Assembly: GCA_003222395.1 (NCBI GenBank)
Contig: QHWB01000039.1
Coordinates: 1-64,000, forward strand
DNA: 64,000 nucleotides
Direction: 5' to 3'
From: Acidobacteriota bacterium
GTDB taxonomy: Bacteria > Acidobacteriota > Vicinamibacteria > Vicinamibacterales > CAVVIG01
The notes under the pieces are model-generated. The model saw only the letters and a list, made by a program, of their open reading frames with translations. It was not told where the DNA came from and did not search any database. Each line of letters starts with the position of its first letter. Positions within the stretch are counted from its first letter, which is position 1. Made by a program: the position numbers and the translations under genes. Shown piece by piece: positions 4,943 through 44,412 of the stretch.

Positions 4943-6232
4943 ATGCCGTACACGCTCACGCGTCGCCAGCTTCTGCGCAGCCTCGCGGTCGTGACCACGC
5001 CTGCCGTCCTGAGCGCGAGGGCGCGTGCACAGTCGACCCCCACGCCAGCGGTCGGCCCGCTCAGTCAAGTCGTCTTGCCGCAGGGCGTCCGCTCACGGTT
5101 CGTCAACGACGTCAACGGCATCCGCATGCACGTTCTGGAAGCAGGGTTCGGCAGCGAGCGCCGACCAGCCGTGCTGTTGGTTCATGGTTTCCCCGAGCTC
5201 GCGTACAGCTGGCGGAAGGTGATGCTGCCGATTGCGGCAGCTGGATATCACGTCATCGCGCCGGACTTGCGAGGGTACGGGCGCACGAGCGGCACGGACG
5301 TGAAGTTCGACGACGACCTGAGTCCGTGGCGAACGTTGAACGAGGTGACCGACATGGTCGCGCTCGTCTCGGCGTTCGGCTATCGCGCGGTCTCCGCCGT
5401 TGTCGGCCACGACTTCGGATCGCCGGTCGCCGCGTGGTGCGCCGTCGTGCGGCCCGATATTTTCCGATCGGTCGTGCTGATGAGCGCGCCGTTCGGCGGG
5501 ACGCCCCCGCTGCCGTTCGACACCGCCGACGCCGCGCAGGCGAGCGGCGCGAGGAACGCGGCGAGCGACGGCATCTACGACGATCTGGCGAAGCTGACGC
5601 CGCCGCGCAAGCACTATCAGCGCTATTACTCGACGCGCGAGGCGAACGACAACCTGTGGCACGCACCGCAGGGACTGCATGCGCTCCTGCGCGCGTACTA
5701 CCACATGAAAAGCGCTGACTGGAAACAGAACGATCCGCATCCGCTCCGCGCGCGGACCGCGGAGGAGTGGGCGAAGCTGCCGCGCTATTACGTCATGGAT
5801 CGCGACAAAGGGATGGCCGAGACCGTCGCTTCCGAGATGCCATTAGCCTCCGCGATCGCCGCCTGCAAGTGGCTTCCCGAAGATGAGCTGCGCGTGTACA
5901 GCACCGAATACGGCAGGACCGGATTTCAGGGCGGCCTCCAATCGTACCGTGTCGGTTCGAGCGGCCGATTCGCTGCGGAGCTTCAGCTGTTCTCGGGCCG
6001 GACGATCGATCAGCCGTCGATGTTCATTGCCGGAAAGGCCGACTGGGGCGCGTATCAGAATCCCGGCGCACTCGAGCGGATGCAGACGAACGCGTGCACG
6101 CGCATGGTCGGCGGCGTCCAGTTCGTCGACGGCGCGGGGCATTGGGTGCAGCAGGAACAACCCGATCGCGTCAGCGCGCTCATCACCGATTTTCTCCGGC
6201 GCAACGCTCCGCGCAACAGCTCCGTTGGATGA
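4943..6232 (+). CDS. Tat-exported alpha/beta hydrolase, epoxide-hydrolase-like
   Basis: 429 residues. The N-terminus (TRRQLLRSLAVVTTPAVLSARARAQ) is a twin-arginine signal with an Ala-rich cleavage region. The hydrolase core follows: oxyanion motif LLVHGFPELAYSWRK, a DLRGYG strand turn, nucleophile elbow VVGHDFGSP (Asp nucleophile, as in epoxide hydrolases and haloalkane dehalogenases), an acidic residue in FIAGKADWG, and the catalytic His in VDGAGHWVQQEQP. The lid carries several Tyr (YQRYYST, ARTAEEWAKLPRYYVMD) that could activate an epoxide. The start ATG has GAGG about 6 nt upstream. Substrate unknown; the role is assigned by family. Confidence 0.8.
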   Translation: MPYTLTRRQLLRSLAVVTTPAVLSARARAQSTPTPAVGPLSQVVLPQGVRSRFVNDVNGIRMHVLEAGFGSERRPAVLLVHGFPELAYSWRKVMLPIAAAGYHVIAPDLRGYGRTSGTDVKFDDDLSPWRTLNEVTDMVALVSAFGYRAVSAVVGHDFGSPVAAWCAVVRPDIFRSVVLMSAPFGGTPPLPFDTADAAQASGARNAASDGIYDDLAKLTPPRKHYQRYYSTREANDNLWHAPQGLHALLRAYYHMKSADWKQNDPHPLRARTAEEWAKLPRYYVMDRDKGMAETVASEMPLASAIAACKWLPEDELRVYSTEYGRTGFQGGLQSYRVGSSGRFAAELQLFSGRTIDQPSMFIAGKADWGAYQNPGALERMQTNACTRMVGGVQFVDGAGHWVQQEQPDRVSALITDFLRRNAPRNSSVG

Positions 6233-9009: not shown

Positions 9010-9088
9010 AACGACGCCGGCGCTAACGACCGACGACGACCGCGACCAACGACCACGACTGACGACCAGCGACCGAGGACTAACGACT
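9010..9088. repeat. Heptamer tract R1 (unit about AACGACC)
   Basis: About ten imperfect 7-nt units built on ACGAC (AACGACC, ACGACTG, AGCGACC, AACGACT) fill the space between the polyamine operon promoter and the barrel-protein gene. On the minus strand it reads TAGTCGT TAGTCCT and so on, and the TAG stop of the upstream gene (9089-9087) lies in its first unit. All units face the same way. Confidence 0.7.
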
Positions 9089-12086: not shown

Positions 12087-14782
12087 AGCTGCTTCTTCAG
12101 CTCCGCGAGGAACGTCAGCGCGTCGATCGGCGTCATCCGATCGACGTCGACCGCTTCCAGCTTCTCGCGCACGACGTCGCGCGGCGGCGCGGCCGGCTGG
12201 AACAATCCGAGCTGGCGCTGCGGCTCGGACGGCGTGCCGCTGAGCGACGGGCGGCCGCCGCGCGTCAGCTCGTCGCGCTCGAGCGCGGACAGGATCTCGC
12301 GCGCGCGATCGATGACCGACCTCGGCAGCCCGGCGAGCCGAGCGACCTGGATGCCGTAGCTGCGATCCGACCGCCCGGGCACGATCTTCCGCAGGAAGAT
12401 GATGTCGTCCTTCCATTCGCGCGCGGCGACGTGACAATTCACCACTCCCGGCGTCGCGTCCGCCAGATCCGTGAGCTCGTGGTAGTGCGTCGCGAACAGC
12501 GTCTTCGGCCGCATGCGCGGGTTGGTCGCCAGGAACTCGGAGACGGCCCACGCGATGCTCAGCCCGTCGAAGGTCGACGTGCCGCGGCCAATCTCGTCGA
12601 GCACGACGAGGCTTCGCGACGTCGCGTGGTGCAGGATGTTCGCCGTCTCCTGCATCTCCGCCATGAACGTCGACTGGCCGCGCGCGATGTTGTCGGACGC
12701 GCCGACGCGCGCGAAGATGCGGTCGACGAGCGGCAGCTTCGCTTCGCGCGCCGGCACGAACGATCCCGCCTGCGCCATGATGCAGATCAGCGCCGTCTGC
12801 CGCAGGTAGGTCGATTTCCCGCCCATGTTCGGACCGGTCAGGACGACGAGCTGCGCCGAGCTGCCGTTCAGCGTGATGTCGTTCGGCACGAACGGATCGC
12901 CCGACGCGGTTCGCCGCTCGACAACGGGATGGCGCCCATCGACGACGGACAGTTCGTCGCCGTCGTGCATCTGCGGCTTGATGTAGTTGTTGACCGCGGC
13001 AACCTCCGCCAGTGTCGCGAGGACGTCGAGCGCGGCGAGCGCCCGCGCCGTCGCCTGAATCCGCGGCGCTTCCGCCGCCACCTCCGCGACCAGCCGCCCG
13101 AAGATCTCGAGCTCGCGCTCGAGGATCCGCTCGTCCGCGCCGAGCACTTTCTCCTCGTACTCCTTGAGCGCCGGCGTGATGAAGCGCTCGCCGCCGGCAA
13201 TCGTCTGCTTGCGGTGATAGTCGGCCGGCACCGCGCGCAGGTTCGACTTCGACACCTCGATGTAGTAGCCGAAGACGCGGTTGTAGCGGACCTTGAGCGA
13301 CGCGATGCCGGTTCGCGCGCGCTCGCGCTCTTCCATCTCCGCGATCACCTGCTTGCCCGAACGGCTGATCGTCCGCAGCTCGTCGAGCTCCCGATCGATG
13401 CCGTCGCGCGTGAAGCCGCCGTCGCGCGCGAACACCGGTGCGTCTTCGGTCAACGTCGATTCAATCGTGCGCCGGACGTCCGTCAGGTCGTCGAGCTCCG
13501 CGACGAGCGATCGCACGAGCGGCGCCTGCAGCTCGCCGAGCACCGCGCGCACCCGCGGCACGACGCCGAGCGACTGCCCGAGGCCGACGAGGTCGCGTGG
13601 TCCGGCGGTGCCGAGGGCGGCACGCGCGACGAGCCGCTCGAGGTCCTGAACGGCTTTCAGCGTCTCGCGGAACCGGCCGCGATCGGTCGTACGGAACGCC
13701 AGCTCCTCGACGGCGTCGAGCCGATGGCGGATCGGTTCGAGTGCGACGAGTGGACGAAGCAGCCACGAGCGCAGAAGTCTGCTGCCGATCGCCGTCACCG
13801 TCGTATCGATCTCCCGGAGCAGCGATCCGTCGCGGCTGCCCTCGGATCCTTCCAGCACCTCGAGATGCTTCAGCGTCGTCGGATCGATGAGCAGCGCATC
13901 CGCGCGCTGCCGGAAGGCAATCGACCGTACGTGCGCCAGGTCGACCTTCTGCGTGCTGCGGAGATGGTGGACGAGCGCGCCTGCGGCCGCGACGGCGGCG
14001 TCGTGGCGGTCGAGACCGAATCCTCCGAGGCCGCCGGCGCGGAATTGATCGAGCAACGTTCTTCGCGCGGTCTCCACGTCGAACGTCCAGGCGTCGACGG
14101 CGGTAATCGGCAGCCCTGCGGCGACGACCGGATTCGGGAGCGCATGCGTGGTCCCGCCGTTGGACGAGCCCGGAGCGTCGTGACGCGCCGCGAGAATTTC
14201 GCGCGGCCGGATGATCGCGAGCTCGTCGGCCAGCGCCTGCAGTCCCTCGCGGCCGGCGTATTCGGCCGCAGTGAATTCGCCGGTCGAGAGATCGAGCAGC
14301 GCGACGCCCACAACGGGTGGCGCGGCGCTTTCAGCCCCGCGATCGCGGCCCTGAAAGGGCCGCGCCACATCCATACCCGTTGGCGCCACCGCCATGATGA
14401 ACGCCGGCTCGCGCGCGTCGAGGTACCTCGCGTCGGTGAGCGTCCCCGGCGAGACGACGCGGACGACTTCGCGCTTGACGACGCCCTTCGCCTTGCGCGG
14501 ATCTTCGACCTGTTCGCAGATGGCGACGCGGAATCCTTTCTTGACGAGCCGCGCGATGTAGCCGTCGACGGCGTGGTACGGCACGCCGCACATCGGGATG
14601 CCGCCGCCGTTCGAGTCCTTCGACCGCGACGTCAGCGTCAGTTCGAGCGCCCGCGCCGCCACGAGGGCGTCTTCGTAGAACATCTCGTAGAAGTCGCCCA
14701 TCCGGAACAACAGGATCGCATCGCGATGCTGCTGCTTCGCGTCCAGGTACTGACGCATCGCGGGCGTCGCCGTCGCTGACAT
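12083..14782 (-). CDS. mutS: DNA mismatch repair protein MutS
   Basis: 899 residues, slightly longer than typical MutS (about 850). The N-terminal mismatch-recognition motif FRMGDFYEMFYEDA contains the Phe-x-Glu wedge. The ATPase has Walker A TGPNMGGKSTYLRQTA, Walker B LVVLDEIGRGTSTFDGLS and a following ATHYHEL. MutS binds mismatches and recruits MutL, which is not in the window. Residues about 139-156, between the strand AFIMAVAP and GVALLDLSTGEF, are encoded by an in-frame palindromic repeat, a loop where length varies in the family. The gene starts 9 nt after TAGACT with no Shine-Dalgarno. The next gene is coupled by a GTGA overlap. Confidence 0.97.
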   Translation of the reverse strand: MSATATPAMRQYLDAKQQHRDAILLFRMGDFYEMFYEDALVAARALELTLTSRSKDSNGGGIPMCGVPYHAVDGYIARLVKKGFRVAICEQVEDPRKAKGVVKREVVRVVSPGTLTDARYLDAREPAFIMAVAPTGMDVARPFQGRDRGAESAAPPVVGVALLDLSTGEFTAAEYAGREGLQALADELAIIRPREILAARHDAPGSSNGGTTHALPNPVVAAGLPITAVDAWTFDVETARRTLLDQFRAGGLGGFGLDRHDAAVAAAGALVHHLRSTQKVDLAHVRSIAFRQRADALLIDPTTLKHLEVLEGSEGSRDGSLLREIDTTVTAIGSRLLRSWLLRPLVALEPIRHRLDAVEELAFRTTDRGRFRETLKAVQDLERLVARAALGTAGPRDLVGLGQSLGVVPRVRAVLGELQAPLVRSLVAELDDLTDVRRTIESTLTEDAPVFARDGGFTRDGIDRELDELRTISRSGKQVIAEMEERERARTGIASLKVRYNRVFGYYIEVSKSNLRAVPADYHRKQTIAGGERFITPALKEYEEKVLGADERILERELEIFGRLVAEVAAEAPRIQATARALAALDVLATLAEVAAVNNYIKPQMHDGDELSVVDGRHPVVERRTASGDPFVPNDITLNGSSAQLVVLTGPNMGGKSTYLRQTALICIMAQAGSFVPAREAKLPLVDRIFARVGASDNIARGQSTFMAEMQETANILHHATSRSLVVLDEIGRGTSTFDGLSIAWAVSEFLATNPRMRPKTLFATHYHELTDLADATPGVVNCHVAAREWKDDIIFLRKIVPGRSDRSYGIQVARLAGLPRSVIDRAREILSALERDELTRGGRPSLSGTPSEPQRQLGLFQPAAPPRDVVREKLEAVDVDRMTPIDALTFLAELKKQL
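14317..14368. repeat. Family-B palindromic element inserted in mutS
   Basis: Outer arms GTGGCGCGGC (14317-14326) and GCCGCGCCAC (14359-14368) are perfect complements. Each half has a small inner hairpin with CTTTCAG or CTGAAAG in its loop. The half-unit GTGGCGCGGCCCTTTCAGG matches the elements at 24856 and 59633 (GTAGCGC-AGCCTTTCAGG). Confidence 0.7.
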
Positions 14783-14791
14783 ATGCTTTAA

Positions 14792-14797
14792 AGTCTA
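14792..14797 (-). promoter_or_regulatory. -10-like TAGACT of mutS
   Basis: TAGACT on the minus strand ends 9 nt before the mutS ATG (14782). There is no ribosome site in the gap, suggesting a very short or absent leader. Confidence 0.4.
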
Positions 14798-14801
14798 GAC
14801 C

Positions 14802-14896
14802 AGCTATCAGCTGTCAGCCGTCGGCTTTCAGCTCTGGCTTTCGGTGCATGGCGCAGCTGAAAGCTGATAGCTGATAGCTGAAAGCTGTTAGCCGTT
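14802..14896. repeat. Heptamer tract R2 with inverted arms (unit AGCTGAT)
   Basis: The left arm (14802-14836) reads AGCTATC, AGCTGTC, AGCCGTC, GGCTTTC, AGCTCTG. The right arm (14855-14896) reads AGCTGAA, AGCTGAT, AGCTGAT, AGCTGAA, AGCTGTT, AGCCGTT. The arms are roughly complementary, so the tract can fold back on itself. The right arm stops 2 nt before the tsaB start codon, and the tract fills almost all of the divergent mutS/tsaB spacer. Confidence 0.8.
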
Positions 14897-14898
14897 CG

Positions 14899-15624
14899 AT
14901 GCGCGTGCTGGCGCTTGACACGACGACGCGAGAGGGGAGCGTGGCGCTCGTCGAAGACGATCGCGTCGTCGACGAGCGGCGCGGCGACGGATCGCGAACC
15001 CACGCGGAACGCCTGCCATCGGAGCTCGCCGATCTCGCGGCCGCGCACGGCGTGGCATGGGCCGACATCGATCTGTTCGCGGTCGCGTCGGGCCCCGGGT
15101 CGTTTACCGGCCTGCGCATCGGCATCGCGACGATTCAGGGGCTGGCGTTCGTGAACCGCCGCCGCGTCGTCGCGGTCGCCGCGCTCGACGCGCTCGCGCA
15201 GGCGGCGAGCGCCGATCGAGCGGCGGGCACGATCGTGGCGGCATGGATGGACGCGCATCGCCACGATGTGTTCACGGCGCTGTATCGCGTGACCGATGCG
15301 CCGCTGTTCACGCCCGAGCGCCTCGCTGCGGTTGAAGCGCCGAGCGTCGGGGATCCGCTCGAAACATTGACCCGCTGGTCGGCGTATTTCGATCGCGGGT
15401 CGGTGTTCATCGGCGACGGGGCGGTGAAGTACCGCGGCGAGATCGATCGCGGGGCGGCGGGTGCAGCGGTCACCGCGCCGCCGCCGCTGGCCGGCGCGAT
15501 CGGACGCATCGCGCTCGCGCGCGCGGCGCGCGGCGACACGGTGGACCCGGCAGGCATTCAGCCGCTGTACATCCGCCGGCCGGACGCGGAGATCGATCGG
15601 GAGAAGAAGCGCTCGCCACAATGA
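14899..15624 (+). CDS. tsaB: tRNA N6-threonylcarbamoyladenosine biosynthesis protein TsaB
   Basis: 241 residues. TsaB is the inactive Kae1/TsaD-like partner that scaffolds TsaD and TsaE when the universal t6A37 modification is made on ANN-decoding tRNAs. The family start LALDTTTREGSVALVEDDRV and the central SGPGSFTGLRIGIATIQGLAF block are clear. It overlaps rimI by 4 nt (ATGA), the common tsaB-rimI arrangement. The start ATG lies 2 nt after the last unit of heptamer tract R2, so its whole leader region is repeat and there is no Shine-Dalgarno. Confidence 0.93.
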   Translation: MRVLALDTTTREGSVALVEDDRVVDERRGDGSRTHAERLPSELADLAAAHGVAWADIDLFAVASGPGSFTGLRIGIATIQGLAFVNRRRVVAVAALDALAQAASADRAAGTIVAAWMDAHRHDVFTALYRVTDAPLFTPERLAAVEAPSVGDPLETLTRWSAYFDRGSVFIGDGAVKYRGEIDRGAAGAAVTAPPPLAGAIGRIALARAARGDTVDPAGIQPLYIRRPDAEIDREKKRSPQ

Positions 15625-17977: not shown

Positions 17978-19882
17978 ATGCGTTATACGGGCGTTGTGTT
18001 CGGATTCGTGTTGATGGTGGCATCCGGGTACGCGCAACCCGAGGTGAAAGCCGGGGTCCCCAACGCGCGGAGTGTGCGCGTTGGGGTGGAAGCCGGGGTG
18101 CAAGAAAGGGTGGAGGACGGCGGCGCCCTGTACGCCCGGAACTGTGCGCGCTGTCACGACCTCGGTCTGCCGCGCACGCCGACGCGCCATGTATTGAGCG
18201 GCCTCGCGCCCGAACGGATCGTCGCGGCTCTCGAGTCGGGCACGATGCGGACGCAGGGCGCGGAGCGGACGCCCGGGGAGCGGCGAGCGATCGCGGCCTT
18301 TCTCACCGGCAAAGCGGTCGGCGACACTCCGGCGCCGCCGCCGCTGCGCATGTGCGCGACCAGCGCGGCGCCGGCGGCGACAAACGCACCGCAATGGAAG
18401 GGGTGGGGTCTGTCGCTTGCCAACGATCGCTTCCAGCGCGGCGCCGCCGCGGGGCTCACGCCGAACGACGTGCCGCGACTGAAGGTGAAATGGGCGTTCG
18501 GTTTCGCCGGCGACGCTTCGGCGGCGGTGCAACCCAGCATCGTCGGCGGACGGGTGTTCGTGGCGAGCGTTCCGGGCCGCATCTACGCGCTGGATCTGCG
18601 CGAAGGCTGCGCCGTGTGGACGTTCGACGCCGACATCATGGTGCGCACGGCCGTCGACGTCGGTGACGCAGGCGGGACGCGTGCGGCGTTCTTCGGCGAC
18701 GTCGCGGGCAACGTCTACAGCGTGGACGCGAACACCGGACGTCTCCGTTGGAAGCACCACGTCGACGATCATCCGATTGCGCGCGTGACCGGCACGCCGA
18801 AGCTGTACGCCGGACGGCTGTACGTGCCGGTGTCGTCGATCGAGGAAGTCGCCGGCGCCGATCCGAAGTATCCGTGCTGCACGTTCCGCGGCAGCGTGGT
18901 CGCGCTCGACGCGGCGACGGGTGCGGTCGTGTGGAAGACGTACGTGATCCCGGAAGCTCCGAAGCCGACGCGTACGAACAAGGTCGGCACGCAGCTGTTC
19001 GGTCCGTCGGGCGCGGCCGTCTGGTCGTCGCCGACGATCGACGAGAACACGAGCACGATCTACGTCGCGACCGGCGACAGTTATTCCGATCCACCGGCCG
19101 AAACGAGCGACGCCATCGTCGCGCTCGACTTGAAAACCGGCGGGATCAAGTGGTCGCAGCAGATGACCGCCGGCGACGCGTTCAACCTGGCGTGCGGCGG
19201 GCCGGATCCGACGAACTGCCCGGACGCCAAGGGACCCGATGTCGACTTCGGATCGCCGCCCATTCTCGTCACGCTGGCGTCGGGCAAGCGCGCGCTCGTC
19301 ATCGGCCAGAAGTCAGCGGTCGTGCACGCGCTCGATCCCGACGACAAAGGGAAGGTGTTGTGGAGCACGCGCATCGGGCGGGGCGGCGCGCTCGGCGGCG
19401 TCGAGTGGGGATCGGCCGCCGATACGGAGCGCATTTACGTGCCGCTGTCGGACATCGCGTTCAGGCAGCGCGGGCTCGACATCGCGGGGATGACGCCGAA
19501 TCCGGACGTCGGCGGCGGCCTGTTCGCGCTGCAGCTGGCCGACGGCAAGGAGGCGTGGCATGCCGCGCCGCCCGGCTGCAACGGCCGTCCGAACTGCAGC
19601 CCGGCGCAATCGGCGCCCGCGTCGGTCGCGGCCGGCGTCGTGTTCTCGGGTTCGGTCGACGGTCATCTGCGCGCGTACTCGACGAAAGACGGCCGCATCG
19701 TGTGGGACTTCGACACGGCGAAGGAGTACACGACGGTGAACGGCGTGAAAGCGCGCGGCGGATCGATCGACGTCGGAGGACCGGCCATCGCCGGCGGCAT
19801 GGTGGTGACGACGTCCGGCTACGCGCAATGGGGTGGCCTGGGCGGGAACGTGCTGCTCGCGTTCTCGGTCGATGGGAAATAG
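17978..19882 (+). CDS. Exported PQQ-type beta-propeller protein with N-terminal cytochrome c domain
   Basis: 634 residues. A signal peptide (RYTGVVFGFVLMVASGYAQ) is followed by about 20 residues encoded by a palindromic repeat. A cytochrome c domain comes next with the haem site CARCH and a later Met region (SGTMRTQGAERTPGER). From about residue 140 there is an eight-bladed propeller with PQQ-binding-like repeats (GRIYALDLREGCAVWTFDADI, GNVYSVDANTGRLRWKHHVDD, VVALDAATGAVVWKTYVI, GHLRAYSTKDGRIVWDFDT). This resembles periplasmic PQQ/polyvinyl-alcohol-dehydrogenase-type quinohaemoproteins that oxidise alcohols and pass electrons to haem. Substrate unknown. Confidence 0.82.
   Translation: MRYTGVVFGFVLMVASGYAQPEVKAGVPNARSVRVGVEAGVQERVEDGGALYARNCARCHDLGLPRTPTRHVLSGLAPERIVAALESGTMRTQGAERTPGERRAIAAFLTGKAVGDTPAPPPLRMCATSAAPAATNAPQWKGWGLSLANDRFQRGAAAGLTPNDVPRLKVKWAFGFAGDASAAVQPSIVGGRVFVASVPGRIYALDLREGCAVWTFDADIMVRTAVDVGDAGGTRAAFFGDVAGNVYSVDANTGRLRWKHHVDDHPIARVTGTPKLYAGRLYVPVSSIEEVAGADPKYPCCTFRGSVVALDAATGAVVWKTYVIPEAPKPTRTNKVGTQLFGPSGAAVWSSPTIDENTSTIYVATGDSYSDPPAETSDAIVALDLKTGGIKWSQQMTAGDAFNLACGGPDPTNCPDAKGPDVDFGSPPILVTLASGKRALVIGQKSAVVHALDPDDKGKVLWSTRIGRGGALGGVEWGSAADTERIYVPLSDIAFRQRGLDIAGMTPNPDVGGGLFALQLADGKEAWHAAPPGCNGRPNCSPAQSAPASVAAGVVFSGSVDGHLRAYSTKDGRIVWDFDTAKEYTTVNGVKARGGSIDVGGPAIAGGMVVTTSGYAQWGGLGGNVLLAFSVDGK
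18055..18089. repeat. Family-A palindrome inside the PQQ protein gene
   Basis: GGT, then arms CCCCAACGCGC (18058-18068) and GCGCGTTGGGG (18076-18086), then TGG: 11-bp perfect arms with a 7-nt loop. The same GGTCCCCAACGCG...CGCGTTGGGGTGG layout occurs at 39901 and 48216. It is read in frame just after the signal peptide. Confidence 0.75.
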
Positions 19883-31262: not shown

Positions 31263-32237
31263 ATGCCGGCTGAAACGCTCGAGTTCGAGGAGCCGATCGC
31301 CGTTCTCCTCAAGGAGATCGACGCGCTGACGCTGTTGCCGCGCACCGACGCGCGCGACCGCGAGATCGAATCGCTCCGGCGCCGCATCGAATCGGTTCGC
31401 GAGGAGCTGTATCGCTCGCTGACGCCGTGGCAGCGCGTCCTCGTGTCCCGTCATCCGAATCGTCCCGGGCTGCACGATTACCTCGATCGGCTGTTCCGCG
31501 GCTTCGCGGAAGTCCATGGCGACCGCCGCTTCGCCGACGATCACGCCATCATGGCCGGCTTCGCGGAGTACCGAGGTCAACCCGTCGTGGTCGTGGGCCA
31601 CGTGAAGGGCAGCGACACGAAGGAAAAAATTTTCCGCAATTTCGGCTACGCGCGGCCCGAGGGGTACCGCAAGGCGCTGCGGGTGATGCGGATCGCGGAG
31701 AAGTTCCGGCGGCCGATCGTGGTCTTCGTCGACACGCCCGCCGCCTATCCGGGCATCGAATCGGAGGAGCGGGGTGTCGCGGAAGCCATCGCGGTCAACC
31801 TGCGCGAGATGATGCTCATCGACGCGCCGATCGTCGTCATCGTGTCCGGCGAGGGCGGCAGCGGCGGCGCGCTCGGCATCGCCGTCGGCGACCGCGTGCT
31901 GATGCAGGAGTTCGCCATCTACAGCGTCATCCCGCCGGAAGGATGCGCCGCGATTCTGTGGCGCGACGCCTCGAAGAAAGTCGAAGCGGCCGACGCGCTG
32001 AAGCTGACCGCGCCCGATCTGTTGCAGGCCGGCGCCATCGACGAAATCGTGCGCGAGCCGATCGGCGGCGCGCACACCAACGCCGACGCCGCGGCACGGC
32101 TCCTCGATGAGGCGCTCGCGCGCGCGCTCACCGAGATTTCCGCCGTCGACAGCGAAGTGCGACTCGAGAAGCGGTATGCGAAGTTTCGGGCGATGGGTCG
32201 GGTGGGCATCGATTTCGTTGATGAGAGCACCGCATGA
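31263..32237 (+). CDS. accA: Acetyl-CoA carboxylase carboxyltransferase alpha subunit
   Basis: 324 residues, standard length. AccA with AccD transfers CO2 from carboxybiotin to acetyl-CoA, the first step of fatty acid synthesis. The start LEFEEPIAVLLKEIDAL and the blocks GDRRFADDHAIMAGFAEYRG, PEGYRKALRVMRIAEKF and GEGGSGGALGIAVGD are diagnostic. It begins 19 nt after dnaE and overlaps recJ by 4 nt. AccD, AccB and AccC are not in the window. Confidence 0.97.
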   Translation: MPAETLEFEEPIAVLLKEIDALTLLPRTDARDREIESLRRRIESVREELYRSLTPWQRVLVSRHPNRPGLHDYLDRLFRGFAEVHGDRRFADDHAIMAGFAEYRGQPVVVVGHVKGSDTKEKIFRNFGYARPEGYRKALRVMRIAEKFRRPIVVFVDTPAAYPGIESEERGVAEAIAVNLREMMLIDAPIVVIVSGEGGSGGALGIAVGDRVLMQEFAIYSVIPPEGCAAILWRDASKKVEAADALKLTAPDLLQAGAIDEIVREPIGGAHTNADAAARLLDEALARALTEISAVDSEVRLEKRYAKFRAMGRVGIDFVDESTA

Positions 32238-33943
32238 TTCCGCTTCGCTGGGACTGCAATACCTGTGACGAAACCGCCGCGAACGCTCTGGCCGCGGCGA
32301 TCCGGATTGAGCCTGCCGTGGCGCGGCTGCTGTGTCAGCGCGGGATTGCGGATCCGGGTCTCGCCGAGCGGTTTCTAAACCCTTCGATCGATCATCTCCA
32401 CGATCCATGGCTGCTCGCGGACATGCGCGCCGCGGTCGATCGCATCCTCGCGGCGATCGCGCGCAGGGAGCGGATCGCGATTCACGGCGACTACGACGTC
32501 GACGGGATCACGTCGACGGTGATCCTGCGACGTGCACTGGAGCTACTTGGCGCCGATGTGGTGCATTTCATCCCGGAGCGGCTGAAGGACGGCTACGGAC
32601 TGCAGCCGGCGGCAATCGAACGGCTGCACGCCGACGGGGTGGCGCTGGTCGTCTCGGTCGACTGCGGCATCCGCGGCGCCGAGGCGGCGCGCCGCGCGCG
32701 CGAGCTGGGCATCGATCTGATCATCACCGATCATCACGAGCCCGACGCGGAGCTGCCGGCCGCGCTCGCCGTCATCAATCCCAAACGCCACGACTGCAGC
32801 TATCCGGACAAGGACCTCGCGGGCGTCGGCGTCGCCTTGAAGCTGGTGCAGTCGCTCTGCCGCGCCGCCGAGCGCGAGAGCTGGCTGCCGGGCTTCATCA
32901 AGGTCGCCGCCATCGGTACGCTGGCCGACGTCGTCCCCCTCGTGGGTGAGAACCGGGTCATCGCGAAGATCGGGCTCGACATGCTGTCGCGCGGCCCGCA
33001 CAAGATCGGATTGCGCTCGCTGCTCGACATCTCGGGGCTGACCGGCAAGACGATCGACAGCTACCACATCTCGTTTTTGCTGGCGCCGCGCGTCAACGCG
33101 GCGGGGCGCATGAGCACGCCCGACATCGCCACGCGGCTGCTGCTCGCGGCCGACGAGGCGATGGCCGACGAGGCGCGGCGTCTCGCGATGCAGCTCGATG
33201 GGGAGAACCTGCGGCGCCAGGAGGAAGAGGCGGAGATCCTCGCGGCGGCGAGGAAGATCGTCCAGACCGATCCCGATATCGGCGCGCGATCGGTGCTCGT
33301 CGTCGCCGGCGAGGGATGGCATCGCGGCGTCATCGGCATCGTGGCCAGCAAGCTCGTGGATACGTTCCACCGGCCGGCGATCGTGTTGTCGGTCGAGGAC
33401 GGCATCGCGCACGGCTCGTGCCGCAGCATCACCAAGTTCGACATGCTCGGCGCGCTCGAGCGCTGTGCGCACCTGTTCATCCGCTTCGGCGGACACAAAC
33501 AGGCGGCGGGTCTCGCGCTCGAGGCGGATCGGATCAAGGAACTGCGGCTGGCGGTCAACGCCGTCGCGGACGAGATTCTCGGGCCTGAGGACCTGATGCC
33601 GCGACTGCGCATCGACGCCGACCTCACTTTTCGCGGCATCACCGGCGGCGTGGCCGCCGGCATCGCCTCGCTCGCGCCGTTCGGCGCCGGGAACGCGCGT
33701 CCCGTGTTCGCCGCGCGGCGCGTGGAGATCATCGACGGTCCGCGCGTGCTGAAGGACCGTCACCTCAAGATGGCGCTGAAGCAGGACGGCCGCATCTTCC
33801 GCGCCGTCGCATGGCGCGCCGCCGAGCGCGCCGACTTCCTCACCGAGCACAAGGCCGCCATCGACGTGGCGTTCTCCCTCGAACAGAACCAGTACAATGG
33901 GGAAACGTTCGTCGATCTCAGCATTGCTGATTTCAGATTGTAG
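32234..33943 (+). CDS. recJ: Single-stranded-DNA-specific exonuclease RecJ
   Basis: 569 residues. RecJ degrades single-stranded DNA 5' to 3' in recombination and repair. The DHH phosphoesterase motifs are intact: IHGDYDVDGITSTVIL, VSVDCGI, and IITDHHEPDAELPAA with the DHH triad. The DHHA1 domain has IRFGGHKQAAGLALE, and the C-terminal OB domain follows. It overlaps accA by 4 nt. Its TAG stop (33941-33943) lies inside the first units of heptamer tract R4, so the final residues are repeat-encoded. Confidence 0.96.
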   Translation: MIPLRWDCNTCDETAANALAAAIRIEPAVARLLCQRGIADPGLAERFLNPSIDHLHDPWLLADMRAAVDRILAAIARRERIAIHGDYDVDGITSTVILRRALELLGADVVHFIPERLKDGYGLQPAAIERLHADGVALVVSVDCGIRGAEAARRARELGIDLIITDHHEPDAELPAALAVINPKRHDCSYPDKDLAGVGVALKLVQSLCRAAERESWLPGFIKVAAIGTLADVVPLVGENRVIAKIGLDMLSRGPHKIGLRSLLDISGLTGKTIDSYHISFLLAPRVNAAGRMSTPDIATRLLLAADEAMADEARRLAMQLDGENLRRQEEEAEILAAARKIVQTDPDIGARSVLVVAGEGWHRGVIGIVASKLVDTFHRPAIVLSVEDGIAHGSCRSITKFDMLGALERCAHLFIRFGGHKQAAGLALEADRIKELRLAVNAVADEILGPEDLMPRLRIDADLTFRGITGGVAAGIASLAPFGAGNARPVFAARRVEIIDGPRVLKDRHLKMALKQDGRIFRAVAWRAAERADFLTEHKAAIDVAFSLEQNQYNGETFVDLSIADFRL

Positions 33944-34041
33944 ATTGCAGATTGATTGCTGCATTGGCCCGAAATCGGCAATCTGAAATCAACAATCTGA
34001 AATCAACAATCTGAAATCAACAATCTGAAATCAACAATCTC
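33934..34041. repeat. Heptamer tract R4 with inverted arms (CAGATTG / CAATCTG)
   Basis: The left arm has CAGATTG, TAGATTG, CAGATTG (33934-33954). After a spacer, the right arm (33979-34041) has four perfect copies of the 14-mer CAATCTGAAATCAA plus CAATCTC. CAATCTG is the exact complement of CAGATTG, so the arms can pair. The tract contains the recJ stop and ends 2 nt before the lptC-type start ATG at 34044. Confidence 0.85.
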
Positions 34042-34043
34042 TT

Positions 34044-36125
34044 ATGACCCTGTGGCAGCGGAGAGCGCGCGTCATCATCGGCGGCGCCGCCGTCGCGTTC
34101 GCGCTGTTCGTGGCGTTCGAATTCAAGCGGCGCGGACCCGCGGCGCCGGCCCAGCCCATCGCACCTACCGATCCCACGGCCGTCGTCGAGAGCATCGGCG
34201 GACGCGTCGAGCGGTTCCAGCTGTCGCGTGAGAACGCCAGCATCGCCTACCAGAAGCAGCTCACCTACGCCGACGGATCGTCGAAGCTCCTCGGCGTCAC
34301 CATCGCCACCGACGAGAGAAACGGCGACGGTCCGTTCAGCGCCACCGCCAGGGAAGCGTCGGTCGCCAAGGATGAATCGACCGTGGTACTCGACGGCGAC
34401 GTGCGCGTCGGGTCCGCGGGAATACACGCGCGCACCGAACATGCCTCCTATACCAAATCGGACAATACGCTCCGCGCGCCCGGGCCGACCGAGGTCGCCG
34501 AAGGGAAGACGACCGCGAACGGCGTCGGCATGACGTTCGATCGCAATGCCGACGCGCTGACGATCCACGACCAGGCCGTCATCCACATGGCGGACGCGAA
34601 CGGCGGCGGCGTCACGGAAATCACCTGCGGCACGGCGACTTTCGCGCGCCGCGAGCGATATCGGCGGTTCGAGAAGGCCGTCAGGATGCGGCGCGGCGCG
34701 CACGTGCTCGAGGCCGACGTCGCCGTCGCGTACTTGAGCCAGGACGAGAAACGGATCGAACGGATCGAGCTGCGCGAGAACGCGCGAATCGCCTCGTCGG
34801 ACCCGTCGCCCGGCGCGCTGCAGTCGTTGACCGGCCGGATCATGAACCTTACGTACGCGCCGGATGGCTCGTCGCTCGAGCACGCCGTCATCGACGAGAA
34901 CGCGATCGTTCAGCTGGCGGGCGAAAAGGGACAGACGGGTCGCCAGATCGCCGCGAAGCTGCTCGACATCGCCCTCGGCCCTGACGGCTCGACGCCGACC
35001 GCGGTGGTCGGCCGCGAGAACGTGCAGCTGACGATGCCGGCTGAAGGCGACGCGCCGGCGCGCACCATCGAGGCGGCCGACGTGGAAGCGAAAGGGCAGC
35101 CGGGCCGCGGTCTGACGCGCGCGCAGTTCTCGGGCAACGTGCAGTACCGCGAGCGCGGCGCGAACACCGGTCGCGCCGCTTCGTCCGGCACGCTCGACGT
35201 CGGCCTCAAGCCCGCATTGAGCGCGCTCGAGGACGCGAAGTTCGCGCATGCCGTGAAGTTCGAGGAGGGAAAGCTCGCGGCGCTCGCCGCTGCCGGCCGC
35301 TACGACGTCGACAAAGGCACGCTCGAGTTGAGCGGATCGGAGCCCGGCGCGCCCGCGCCGCATGTGATTACCGACCAGATTACGGTCGACGCGCAGAAAA
35401 TCGACGTGACGCTCGACGGACCGAAGGTGAAGGCGGCCGGCACCGTGAAGAGCGTGCTCAAGCCGACCAGGACGGGCAAGATGCCGTCGATGTTGAAGCA
35501 GGATCAGCCGGTCAACGTCCTCGCGGCGAACCTCGACTACGACGGGACGGCGTCGCGCGGCACTTACACCGGTGACGCCCGCCTGTTTCAGGGCGACACG
35601 TCCGTGAAGGCTGAAACGATCGCCATCGACGACAAGCACGGCGATCTGTCCGCGTCGGGCAGCGTCACGTCGACGACGATGCTCGAACAGCAGGAGAAGG
35701 AACGGAAACGAAAGAAGGAACGCGTGCGGTCGATCGCGTCGGCGAAAGAGATGAAGTACGAAGAGGGCGAGCGGCGCCTCACCTACACCGGCGACGCGCA
35801 TCTGGTCAACCCCGACGGCGACATGACGGCGGCGAAAATCGAGCTGTATCTGAAACCGTCCGGCGACGAGCTCGATCGCGCCGAGGCGTACGACGACGTC
35901 ACGCTGCGCGAACAGGAGCGCAAGACGACCGGCTCGCGCATGACCTACACCGCAGACGACGAGCGATACGTCATCACAGGCGTGCCGGTGAAGATCGTCG
36001 ACGAATGCAGCCGCGAGACGATCGGCCGAACGCTCACCTTCCTGAAGGCGACCGACAGCATCGTCGTCGACGGCAATCAGCAGATCCGCACACAGACAAA
36101 GGGCGGCGGAAAGTGCGCTAGCTGA
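34044..36125 (+). CDS. LPS export periplasmic protein: LptC-type anchor fused to LptA/OstA-like repeats
   Basis: 693 residues, against about 190 for LptC and 185 for LptA. A single N-terminal transmembrane helix (about residues 8-24, [20 protein letters not shown]) precedes an LptC-like segment. Repeated OstA-type beta-jellyroll blocks follow ([92 protein letters not shown]). This suggests one protein spanning the periplasm as part of the LPS bridge, replacing separate LptC and LptA. It is followed by lptB with a TGATG overlap. The leader consists of repeat R4 and has no Shine-Dalgarno. Confidence 0.85.
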
Positions 36126-36850
36126 TGGCGACGCTTCGCACGCACGACCTGACGAAGTCCTACAACGGCCGCACCGTCGTGCGCGGCGTCAACCTCGACG
36201 TCGCCTCGGGCGAGATCGTGGGGCTGCTCGGGCCGAACGGGGCCGGCAAGACGACGACGTTTTACATGACGGTCGGATTGACGGCGCCCGACTCGGGACG
36301 CGTGGAGCTCGACGGCCACGACGTCACCGACGATCCGATGTACATCCGCGCGCGGAAAGGGATCGGATATCTTCCCCAGGAACCGTCGATTTTTCGCGGT
36401 CTGACGGTGGAGCAGAACATCCTCGCCATCCTCGAGACGATGGATCTCGACGGGGCGGCGAGGCGGGCGCGGCTCAAGGAACTGCTCGGAGAGCTGAATC
36501 TCGCGCCGCTGGCTCAGGCGCCCGCCTACACGCTCTCCGGCGGCGAGCGGCGCCGCGCGGAAATCACGCGCGCGCTCGTCATCTCACCCAAGTTCATCCT
36601 GCTCGACGAACCGTTTGCGGGCATAGACCCTATTGCGGTCAGCGACATCCAGAAGATCATTTTTCACCTTCGCGATCGCGGAATTGGCGTGCTGATCACC
36701 GATCACAACGTACGGGAAACGCTGCGCATTACTGATCGCGCATACATCGTTCACGACGGGATCATCTTCAAGAGCGGAACGCCCGATAGTTTGGCGGCGG
36801 ACGACGAAGTCCGGCGGATTTATCTGGGGACAGAGTTTCGATTAGACTAA
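36125..36850 (+). CDS. lptB: LPS export ABC transporter ATP-binding protein
   Basis: 241 residues, full length. LptB powers LPS extraction by the LptFG permease. Walker [12 protein letters not shown]-loop [14 protein letters not shown], signature [11 protein letters not shown], Walker [16 protein letters not shown] and H-loop LITDHNV are intact. The Q-loop segment is typical of LptB rather than of amino-acid transporters. It overlaps the upstream LptC/A-type gene by one base (TGATG). The permease partner lies apart, at 57264. Confidence 0.97.
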
Positions 36851-43401: not shown

Positions 43402-43767
43402 GTGACCGAGATCACTCGTGTTGAGAAACCGTGGGGGTACGAGCTCCACTGGGCCAAGACCGACCGGTATGTGGGCAAGCTGATTCATGTCAACGCGGGA
43501 CACGCGTTGAGCCTGCAGTACCACAACGTGAAGGACGAGACGATTTACCTGCACTCGGGCAGGCTGCTGTTCGAGATTCAGGAGGACGGCGAGCTGCAGA
43601 AGCGCGAGATGAAGCCCGGCGAACGCGTCCACATCACGCCGAAGACGATTCACCGCATGACCGCGATCGAAGACAGCGACATCTTCGAGGTGTCGACGCC
43701 GGAGCTGCACGACGTGGTCAGACTGGAAGACAGATACGGCAGGCAAGATAGGAAAAGTTCGAAGTAG
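43402..43767 (+). CDS. Cupin-domain protein, mannose-6-phosphate isomerase type II-like
   Basis: 121 residues forming a single cupin barrel. It starts VEKPWGYELHWAKTDRYVGKLIHV and has the two cupin motifs HALSLQYHNVKDETIYLHSG and PGERVHITPKTIHRMTA with His/Glu metal ligands. Such small proteins resemble the cupin part of mannose-6-phosphate isomerase/GDP-mannose pyrophosphorylase; as a stand-alone enzyme it may isomerise a sugar phosphate. GTG start with GGAG 7 nt upstream. It follows ptsI by 30 nt. The stop and last residues (SSK) lie in repeat tract R5. Confidence 0.85.
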   Translation: MTEITRVEKPWGYELHWAKTDRYVGKLIHVNAGHALSLQYHNVKDETIYLHSGRLLFEIQEDGELQKREMKPGERVHITPKTIHRMTAIEDSDIFEVSTPELHDVVRLEDRYGRQDRKSSK

Positions 43768-43877
43768 GAAGTACGAAGTCGGAAGTACGAAGTCGGAGGT
43801 AACGAAGTCAGAAGTTCGAAGTCGGGAGTACGAAATGAGTTCGTACTTCAAACTTCAAACTTCAAACTTCTGACTTG
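43756..43877. repeat. Heptamer tract R5 with inverted arms (AGTACGA / ACTTCAA)
   Basis: The left arm has ten units of the form AGTNNGA (AGTTCGA, AGTAGGA, AGTACGA, AGTCGGA, AGTACGA, AGTCGGA, then AGTCAGA, AGTTCGA, AGTCGGG, AGTACGA), with one 8-nt break at 43798. The right arm (43845-43879) has ACTTCAA three times, ACTTCTG and ACTTGTT, the reverse orientation. It fills the spacer between two convergent genes and contains the cupin TAG stop. Confidence 0.85.
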
Positions 43878-43878
43878 T

Positions 43879-44412
43879 TCAGAAGGGGATATCGTCGTCG
43901 GTGAGCGGCTCGGACGTTTCCGACGCAGGCGCCGGCGCGTGCGACCCCACCTCCTCCATGCCGCCGCGCGACATCTGGCCGCCGCCGCGTCCGCCTCCGC
44001 TGCCGACGAGCGTGACGCGATCGGCCCGAACGTCGAATCGCGTCTCGACGTAGGGCACGCTCTCGGCGTCGCATTTCTGGCAACGCATCTTCTCTCTGCT
44101 GTTCGGACGGAAGTCGCGATCCGGAAAGAACGCGTCGCACTGCCGGCAACGCGGGACCTTGCGGCTTTGCAGCCGCCCTTCCACGTAGACCTGTCGACCT
44201 TTCAGAAGATATTCCGAAAGCGATTCGGCCTGCTTGCCCCAGAGATCGATGTTGTGCCACTCAGTCCGTTCTTGAGGACTGCCGGACTTGTCGTTCCATT
44301 TCTCGGTCGTCGCCAGACTGAACTTGGCGATCGCCGCGCCGCTCGGTGTGTAGCGCAACTCGGCATCGCGTCCGAGGTTGCCGACGAGAATGATCTTGTT
44401 GACTGAGCCCAT
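43879..44412 (-). CDS. ssb: Single-stranded DNA-binding protein with inserted four-Cys zinc-ribbon-like segment
   Basis: 177 residues. It starts with the normal SSB OB-fold ([55 protein letters not shown]) and ends with the partner-binding tail DDDIPF. Between residues 86 and 123, where E. coli SSB has a short hairpin (RKWTDQSGQDRYTTE), it carries about 38 extra residues with Cys 89, 92, 111 and 114 (CRQC...CQKC), a CX2C-X18-CX2C zinc-ribbon-like pattern. The OB strand then resumes at [14 protein letters not shown]. It is downstream of the Tol-Pal operon but has its own TAGAAT 9 nt before the ATG. Confidence 0.95.

Follow-up and report, generated by a model that had tools for sequence, protein, structure and literature searches.

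Inverted heptamer arms between recJ and an lptC/lptA-type gene

We analyzed a 64,000-nucleotide (nt) stretch of genomic DNA from an Acidobacteriota bacterium (assembly GCA_003222395.1, contig QHWB01000039.1), referred to here as the window, in which a tract of inverted heptamer repeats stands between recJ and a gene of the lptC/lptA type. The locus is laid out as follows.

32234..33943, + strand: recJ (open reading frame call; DHH, DHHA1 and RecJ_OB domains by Pfam), with its stop codon TAG at 33941-33943 inside the left arm
33923..33954, + strand: left arm, with CAGATTG/TAGATTG heptamers in it, overlapping the final recJ codons
33955..33978, + strand: loop or spacer separating the two arms
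33979..34041, + strand: right arm, four perfect CAATCTGAAATCAA 14-mers followed by CAATCTC
34044..36125, + strand: lptC/lptA-type gene (LptC and LptA/LptD_N domains by Pfam)
36125-36850: lptB-like gene for an ATP-binding cassette ATPase, directly after the lptC/lptA-type gene

A preliminary description of this DNA had reported the inverted arms, the four perfect 14-mers, the gap of 2 nt before the ATG and the recJ stop within the left arm, all of which we confirmed in the sequence. The perfect units occupy 33979-34034, CAATCTC extends the right arm to 34041, and the ATG follows 2 nt later at 34044. Relatives share a conserved N-terminus, M(T)xWQR, which supports this start. The right arm was the top-scoring (126) of 89 Tandem Repeats Finder rows in the window, and Rfam gave zero matches across the window. 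The left-arm heptamers from 33934 read CAGATTG, TAGATTG and CAGATTG. Complementarity begins upstream of them, at 33923 within recJ; positions 33923-33954 are 91% complementary to 33979-34010 and also pair in two more registers, 14 and 28 nt on, which bears out the multi-register hairpin proposed earlier. The predicted RNA fold of the tract has an energy of -57 kcal/mol (z -4.8), and none of 200 shuffles was equally stable. The recJ segment 33923-33940, ATTGCTGATTTCAGATTG, is in frame and codes for IADFRL; the recJ tail reads SIADFRL in relative G020 and has a similar LADLK/R in others. When codons for SIADFRL were drawn at random, 38 of 5000 draws equalled the actual segment in pairing with the right arm; with codons drawn uniformly, 27 of 5000 did. 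This suggests that the segment was recoded or that a tolerated position was selected, a point we do not press from a single locus.

The hairpin had also been placed at, or over, the start codon of the downstream gene, and here the prediction disagrees. The three nucleotides of the ATG have predicted unpaired probabilities of 0.96, 0.91 and 0.34, so that the start would be mostly single-stranded just outside the stem, with the spacer looped out by the fold. Predicted accessibility of the start region was nearly unchanged, at 0.50 when the left arm was blocked by a ribosome at the recJ stop and 0.57 when it was unblocked, so that blocking the recJ side would not open the start any further. The absence of a Shine-Dalgarno (SD) sequence before lptC was correctly noted but means little, since SD-like motifs are uncommon among predicted genes of this genome: an SD-like 4-mer lies upstream of 154 of 661 predicted starts, compared with 87 of 661 shuffled upstream regions. 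A scan of 33600-34200 found no terminator-like site and no U-tract terminator. There is no support for use of the hairpin as a switch dedicated to lipopolysaccharide (LPS) export, and none is needed to explain the tract.

Heptamer arrays across the genome

Two further strong arrays occur in the window, both two-armed and made of words unlike CAGATTG.

14787..14907: second array, CAGCTGT/AGCTGAT words, between divergent mutS-like (named by eye) and tsaB-like (Pfam TsaD family) genes
43743..43886: third array, GAAGTNN/ACTTC words, between a convergent cupin gene and ssb

Flanking genes were identified for the three strong arrays, which adjoin mutS/tsaB-like, recJ/lptC and cupin/ssb genes; two weaker arrays lie near 9054 and 17029.

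A census covered 864 kb of the 7.74-Mb genome, namely the window and 40 stretches taken from nine contigs at round-number positions; this sample is not strictly random because the nine contigs were those already shown by the word search. It contained 46 arrays of period 7/14, with 26 in spacers, 1 at the edge of a stretch and 19 in called genes, the latter possibly including over-called open reading frames and false positives; 86% of the sample is called coding. Of the spacer arrays, 17 were co-directional, 6 convergent and 3 divergent. Because 22 of the 26 lay no more than 10 nt from one or both neighbouring genes, and 11 left at most 10 nt free at either end of the spacer, an array nearly touching a start codon is the usual arrangement. 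Scaled to the whole genome, these counts give ~230 spacer arrays and ~410 arrays in total, and there are probably a few hundred similar hairpin arrays. When arrays were counted per spacer of 40-400 nt, they were found in 10 of 53 convergent, 35 of 300 co-directional and 6 of 85 divergent spacers.

By lag, the 864 kb held 43 arrays at lag 7 and 36 at lag 14, against none at control lags 10, 13, 17 and 19 and 4, 3 and 2 at lags 5, 11 and 20. Lags in multiples of 3 were dropped as controls because coding periodicity raises their scores (in 464 kb, lag 6 gave 21, lag 21 gave 26 and lag 7 gave 20). Lags 8 and 16 gave 10 and 7 arrays, part of them real octamer arrays, for example TAATTGGG/TTACCCGA. 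Octamer arrays with inverted arms of this kind lie at loci L104 (7401-8022), L111 (16065-16240) and L117 (16512-16682), and a resembling word is found at the cupin/ssb junction of a related genus, g16. The word families recognised by eye included TATCAGC, CAGATTG, GAAGTNN, CGGGATT, GCGGATT, GCTGGGG, GGTCGTT and others. At locus L107 a GGGCAGA arm (14602-14673) and a GCCCTGC arm (15154-15375) stand ~480 nt apart in one convergent spacer of 684 nt.

The word family of the recJ-lptC locus is itself dispersed. The pattern CAATCTGAAATCAACAATCTG had 88 matches in the genome, some of them overlapping, with up to 3 mismatches, while the reversed-pattern control had 0. Wherever both strands were hit within 300 nt, GATTG lay on the left and CAATC on the right (19 of 19 places, counted by eye). 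The exact 18-mer of the recJ tail recurs, in one orientation or the other, at 12 of 20 loci of this genome (L195-L214), and in 5 of 17 family loci (L012, L017, L023, L024 and L026) the array comes immediately after the TGA that closes the preceding gene. Loops appeared unrelated between loci by eye. Pairing of arms within loci, compared with pairing between loci, left a mean residual of -2.4 kcal (negative at 9 of 20 loci), which 3226 of 20000 random pairings equalled. In a survey of the class, the word was present with up to 2 mismatches in 22 of 149 genomes, with 78 matches in G000 (the genome of the window), 63 in G017, 43 in G095, which belongs to another family, and 16 in G019; G007 had 12 matches against 13 for its reversed control, and all remaining genomes had at most 7.

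Between genera, polarity judged from shared 6-mers was the same in 112 of 127 locus pairs, opposite in 14 and tied in 1; GC-rich false positives are among these pairs, many of which come from a single family, and we use the result as support only. A general rule of a G-rich 5' arm (38 to 9) was discarded as an artefact of counted G-U pairs, non-array spacers giving 249 to 94; when only G-C pairs were counted, 30 to 13 remained (p 0.014) against 186 to 154 in other spacers, a weak tendency. We therefore retain only the polarity of the studied word.

The same spacers in related genomes

We located recJ in 23 of 27 genomes of the family, that of the window included. Array presence, length and words vary across relatives, even inside one genus, in line with the variability anticipated by the preliminary description. 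At recJ/lptC the words, assigned by eye, were CAGATTG in G000, GCGGATT in G019 and a one-armed AAGTCTG in G017; GAGGAT-type arrays occurred in G001, G009 and G021 and, as a remnant, in G023, while G014 had a longer-unit palindrome and G015 a run of N. In G003, G007 and G008 the two genes overlap by 4 nt from stop to start and leave no room for an array. The mutS/tsaB spacer held CAGCTGT in G000, G018 and G023, ACAGTCA in G001 and GGCTCAA in G002. By eye, ten genomes including our own showed eight word classes at cupin/ssb, and words differed between G014 and G015, which belong to the same genus. Named relatives of the recJ come mostly from metagenome-assembled Acidobacteria, two labelled gp6 and one Luteitalea, so the bacterium probably belongs to acidobacterial group 6. 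The record CALQBJ020000306.1, titled Bifidobacterium breve, carries a recJ 76% identical to the acidobacterial one and is probably a mislabelled bin.

Spacers that hold an array in this genome tend to bear one in relatives, often of another word. Across 43 junctions, three of them sampled more deeply, a relative carried an array in 22 of 62 cases where G000 has one and in 16 of 304 where it does not (permutation p 0.003; the cases are not independent, owing to kinship). Where G000 has an array-free spacer of at least 40 nt, relatives carried an array in 6 of 80 cases. Upstream of ssb in G017 and G019 (loci L127 and L125), arms of two different words surround a promoter-like motif, GCATTCTACATCGTC (reverse complement GACGATGTAGAATGC), which is also present in the array-free relatives G021-G023; the arms were therefore added around an older spacer.

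Differences inside genus g16 (G021, G022 and G023) allow a closer view. Where G021 and G023 were aligned they share 84-86% of their nucleotides, and of 12 listed gaps at which they differ in length, 5 involve arrays. One spacer holds two unrelated two-armed arrays, built from GGATGTGA in G021 and from AAAAGTG/CAGTTTT in G023. A second is empty in G023 and occupied in G021 by a two-armed GCGGATT array (ATTGCGG...CCGCAA) with TGA at both edges. A one-armed array at a start codon is found only in G021 of the pair, a shared word changes in copy number next to a more extensive loss from G021, and recJ/lptC is the fifth such gap; at a sixth, at 19303, CAGCCCT heptamers in G023 lie next to a coding repeat change. 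Before a dnaE-like gene (named by eye), G023 has a one-armed array with AATG at both edges and G021 has just TAATG; before tsaB, G023 has another one-armed array with the edge TCTA present twice, and G021 and G022 have none. Gain is the likelier explanation for both G023 arrays because other relatives are empty there.

At cupin/ssb the three genomes share the word TTGGGTAA at differing lengths. In G022 and in G023 a change in one arm is matched by its mirror image in the other; paired with their own partners the arms reach -57.3 and -61.4 kcal, against -45.1 and -49.0 kcal when swapped. G021 shows no own-arm advantage (-21.8 kcal, against -23.1 kcal with the right arm of G022).

Other elements were seen in the same genus. 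Near 5296 of locus L229 (G023, contig C160) there is an insertion of ~310 nt, not present in G021, with the inverted ends TAGTGCCGTTCCAAC and GTTGGAACGGCACTA, which resembles a miniature inverted-repeat transposable element (MITE). Opposite position 10937 of L233, contig C18 of G021 carries three copies of a ~60-nt hairpin repeat (GTAGGGCGGGTCTTGC...), and G023 has a different inverted element there (AACGCAGAGACCGCGGAG). At L077 and L233 of G023, two downstream genes apparently start with a CTG overlapping TGA (CTGA; by eye), and in G021 the start is an ATG after an array.

Origin of the arrays and their relation to described repeats

The arrays have units of 7 nt, sometimes 8 nt, many of them in inverted pairs, and occupy gene spacers; they look mutational or mobile and not like an LPS switch. 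The recJ-lptC tract is one member of this genome-wide class. On balance we consider it probable, with a good deal of room for doubt, that such arrays enter tight junctions, grow by slippage, sometimes have their arms evened out by template switching and are tolerated in spacers. Arrays would enter tight stop/start junctions with a duplication of 2-4 nt, to judge from three cases compared by eye, and would then lengthen or shorten by slippage of 7 or 14 nt, the four perfect 14-mers at recJ-lptC representing a recent expansion. Slippage accounts for the perfect units and the copy-number changes. Arms may be gained or equalised by intrastrand template switching, a process able to create or repair inverted arms in a single event and described for RNA genes, not heptamer arrays (PMC8794818); the mirrored cupin/ssb arms of G022 and G023 fit this process, as they are what it is expected to produce. 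The arrays may persist because spacers tolerate them, and a ribosome finishing recJ would melt the recJ-lptC hairpin.

Several observations weigh against this account. One polarity and words that recur at many loci argue for copying between loci, beyond local slippage. Arm-to-arm copying is not shown for the CAGATTG family, because its own arms pair no better than those of other loci. Not every slot swaps its word quickly, since GAGGAT at recJ/lptC is common to three genera. Hairpins at cupin/ssb are frequent whatever the word, which hints at use. A more far-reaching reading, tentative and in our view unlikely, treats bacterial spacers as lasting slots for interchangeable heptamer hairpins. 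An undescribed process working from a template would carry genome-specific words from one locus to another, place them where a stop meets a start, leaving duplications of 2-4 nt, and could exchange both arms wholesale; architecture and polarity would be inherited, and the word would not.

The frequency of cupin/ssb hairpins speaks for a general usefulness of spacer hairpins, in 3'-end protection, termination between convergent genes or insulation, with selection on structure alone and words left to drift. Among spacers of 25-330 nt, folds at cupin/ssb had z < -3 in 10 of 16 relatives and z < -2 in 14 of 16, with unrelated words, and the mirrored arm changes in two species and the array counts by gene orientation point the same way. 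At other junctions, 2 of 19 relatives for mutS/tsaB and 3 of 11 for recJ/lptC had z < -3, as did 1 of 5, 0 of 11, 2 of 11, 0 of 18 and 0 of 5 for the rest. Such use is plausible between the convergent cupin and ssb genes, but as an explanation of the class it seems rather unlikely: at recJ/lptC the three low values belong solely to array-bearing relatives and others dispense with any spacer, arms of the CAGATTG family are not matched locus by locus, the tract has no U-tract terminator, and per nucleotide array spacers fold no better than other spacers (p 0.62).

Repetitive extragenic palindromic (REP) sequences, mobilised by REP-associated tyrosine transposases (RAYTs), are likewise dispersed and intergenic. 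A REP- or MITE-like mobile family, with a transposase or templated insertion aimed at stop/start junctions, would suit the recurrent 18-mer, the single polarity of the studied word, its patchy amplification and very uneven counts across the class, and the occupied/empty pairs with short edge duplications. We nevertheless think it quite unlikely. The family loops are unrelated, the arms here are tandem heptamers over more than 30 nt, and the genome has a single Y1_Tnp gene (one match to PF01797; RAYT subtype not assigned) with no array within its 3.3-kb locus; at ssb of G017 and G019 whole hairpins were not simply pasted in, because the loop keeps the spacer motif of relatives. Reverse transcriptases gave 3 matches at two sites. 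Very improbable, finally, is the switch of the preliminary description, in which slippage or structure tunes expression of the LPS-export gene. Perfect 14-mers adjoin the start and array lengths differ among relatives, but the start is predicted to be open and several relatives have no array at recJ/lptC; gene-specific LPS control is unsupported because the class fills many other spacers and the overlapping genes of G003, G007 and G008 leave no room for an array.

For the making and spreading of heptamer repeats these slots give natural comparisons: occupied and empty spacers, differing words within a genus and slots shared between genera could serve as tests of slippage, template switching and mobile copying. 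Such arrays should not be taken for gene-specific switches. In the majority of bacterial genomes rich in repeats, heptamers were reported to be the most abundant class among the longer simple repeats (Mrazek 2007, cited in PMC4679880). Among the open-licence papers listed as literature matches, none reported such arrays in Acidobacteria, or word replacement.

In marine Beggiatoaceae the heptamer TAACTGA forms sets of 2-6 copies in the genome described, and as many as 43 copies occur in certain other species (MacGregor 2015, PMC4679880). These repeats resemble our arrays in standing just before start codons and in showing no pattern in the functions of downstream genes, but differ in being direct repeats (one indirect case is reported) of a single fixed word. 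The nearest described objects, and in our assessment the same kind of object in another phylum, are the GGGAATC/GGGGA(C/T)T heptamer repeats of Xanthomonas and Nostoc, whose function is unknown (Rehm et al. 2015, PMC4692102). The counts for two Xanthomonas genomes were 186 and 183 patterns and 70 and 75 convergently oriented inverted pairs, located near the ends of open reading frames (PMC4692102). Both sets have 7-nt units, are dispersed, mostly intergenic and close to the ends of open reading frames, include many convergent inverted pairs, are scarcer between divergent genes and vary in length among relatives. Unlike those repeats, the arrays described here comprise many words per genome, which often differ at orthologous spacers, and a larger share than in Xanthomonas lies in called genes (19 of 46); CAGATTG/CAATCTG lacks the GGG tract of the quadruplex-capable GGGNATC word, a tract that other words of this genome possess. 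The new points are the many words per genome, the replacement of words at shared slots and the occupied/empty pairs with short edge duplications. The genome also holds pairs like those of Rehm et al., GGGATTC ... GAATCCC, at loci L070 and L108.
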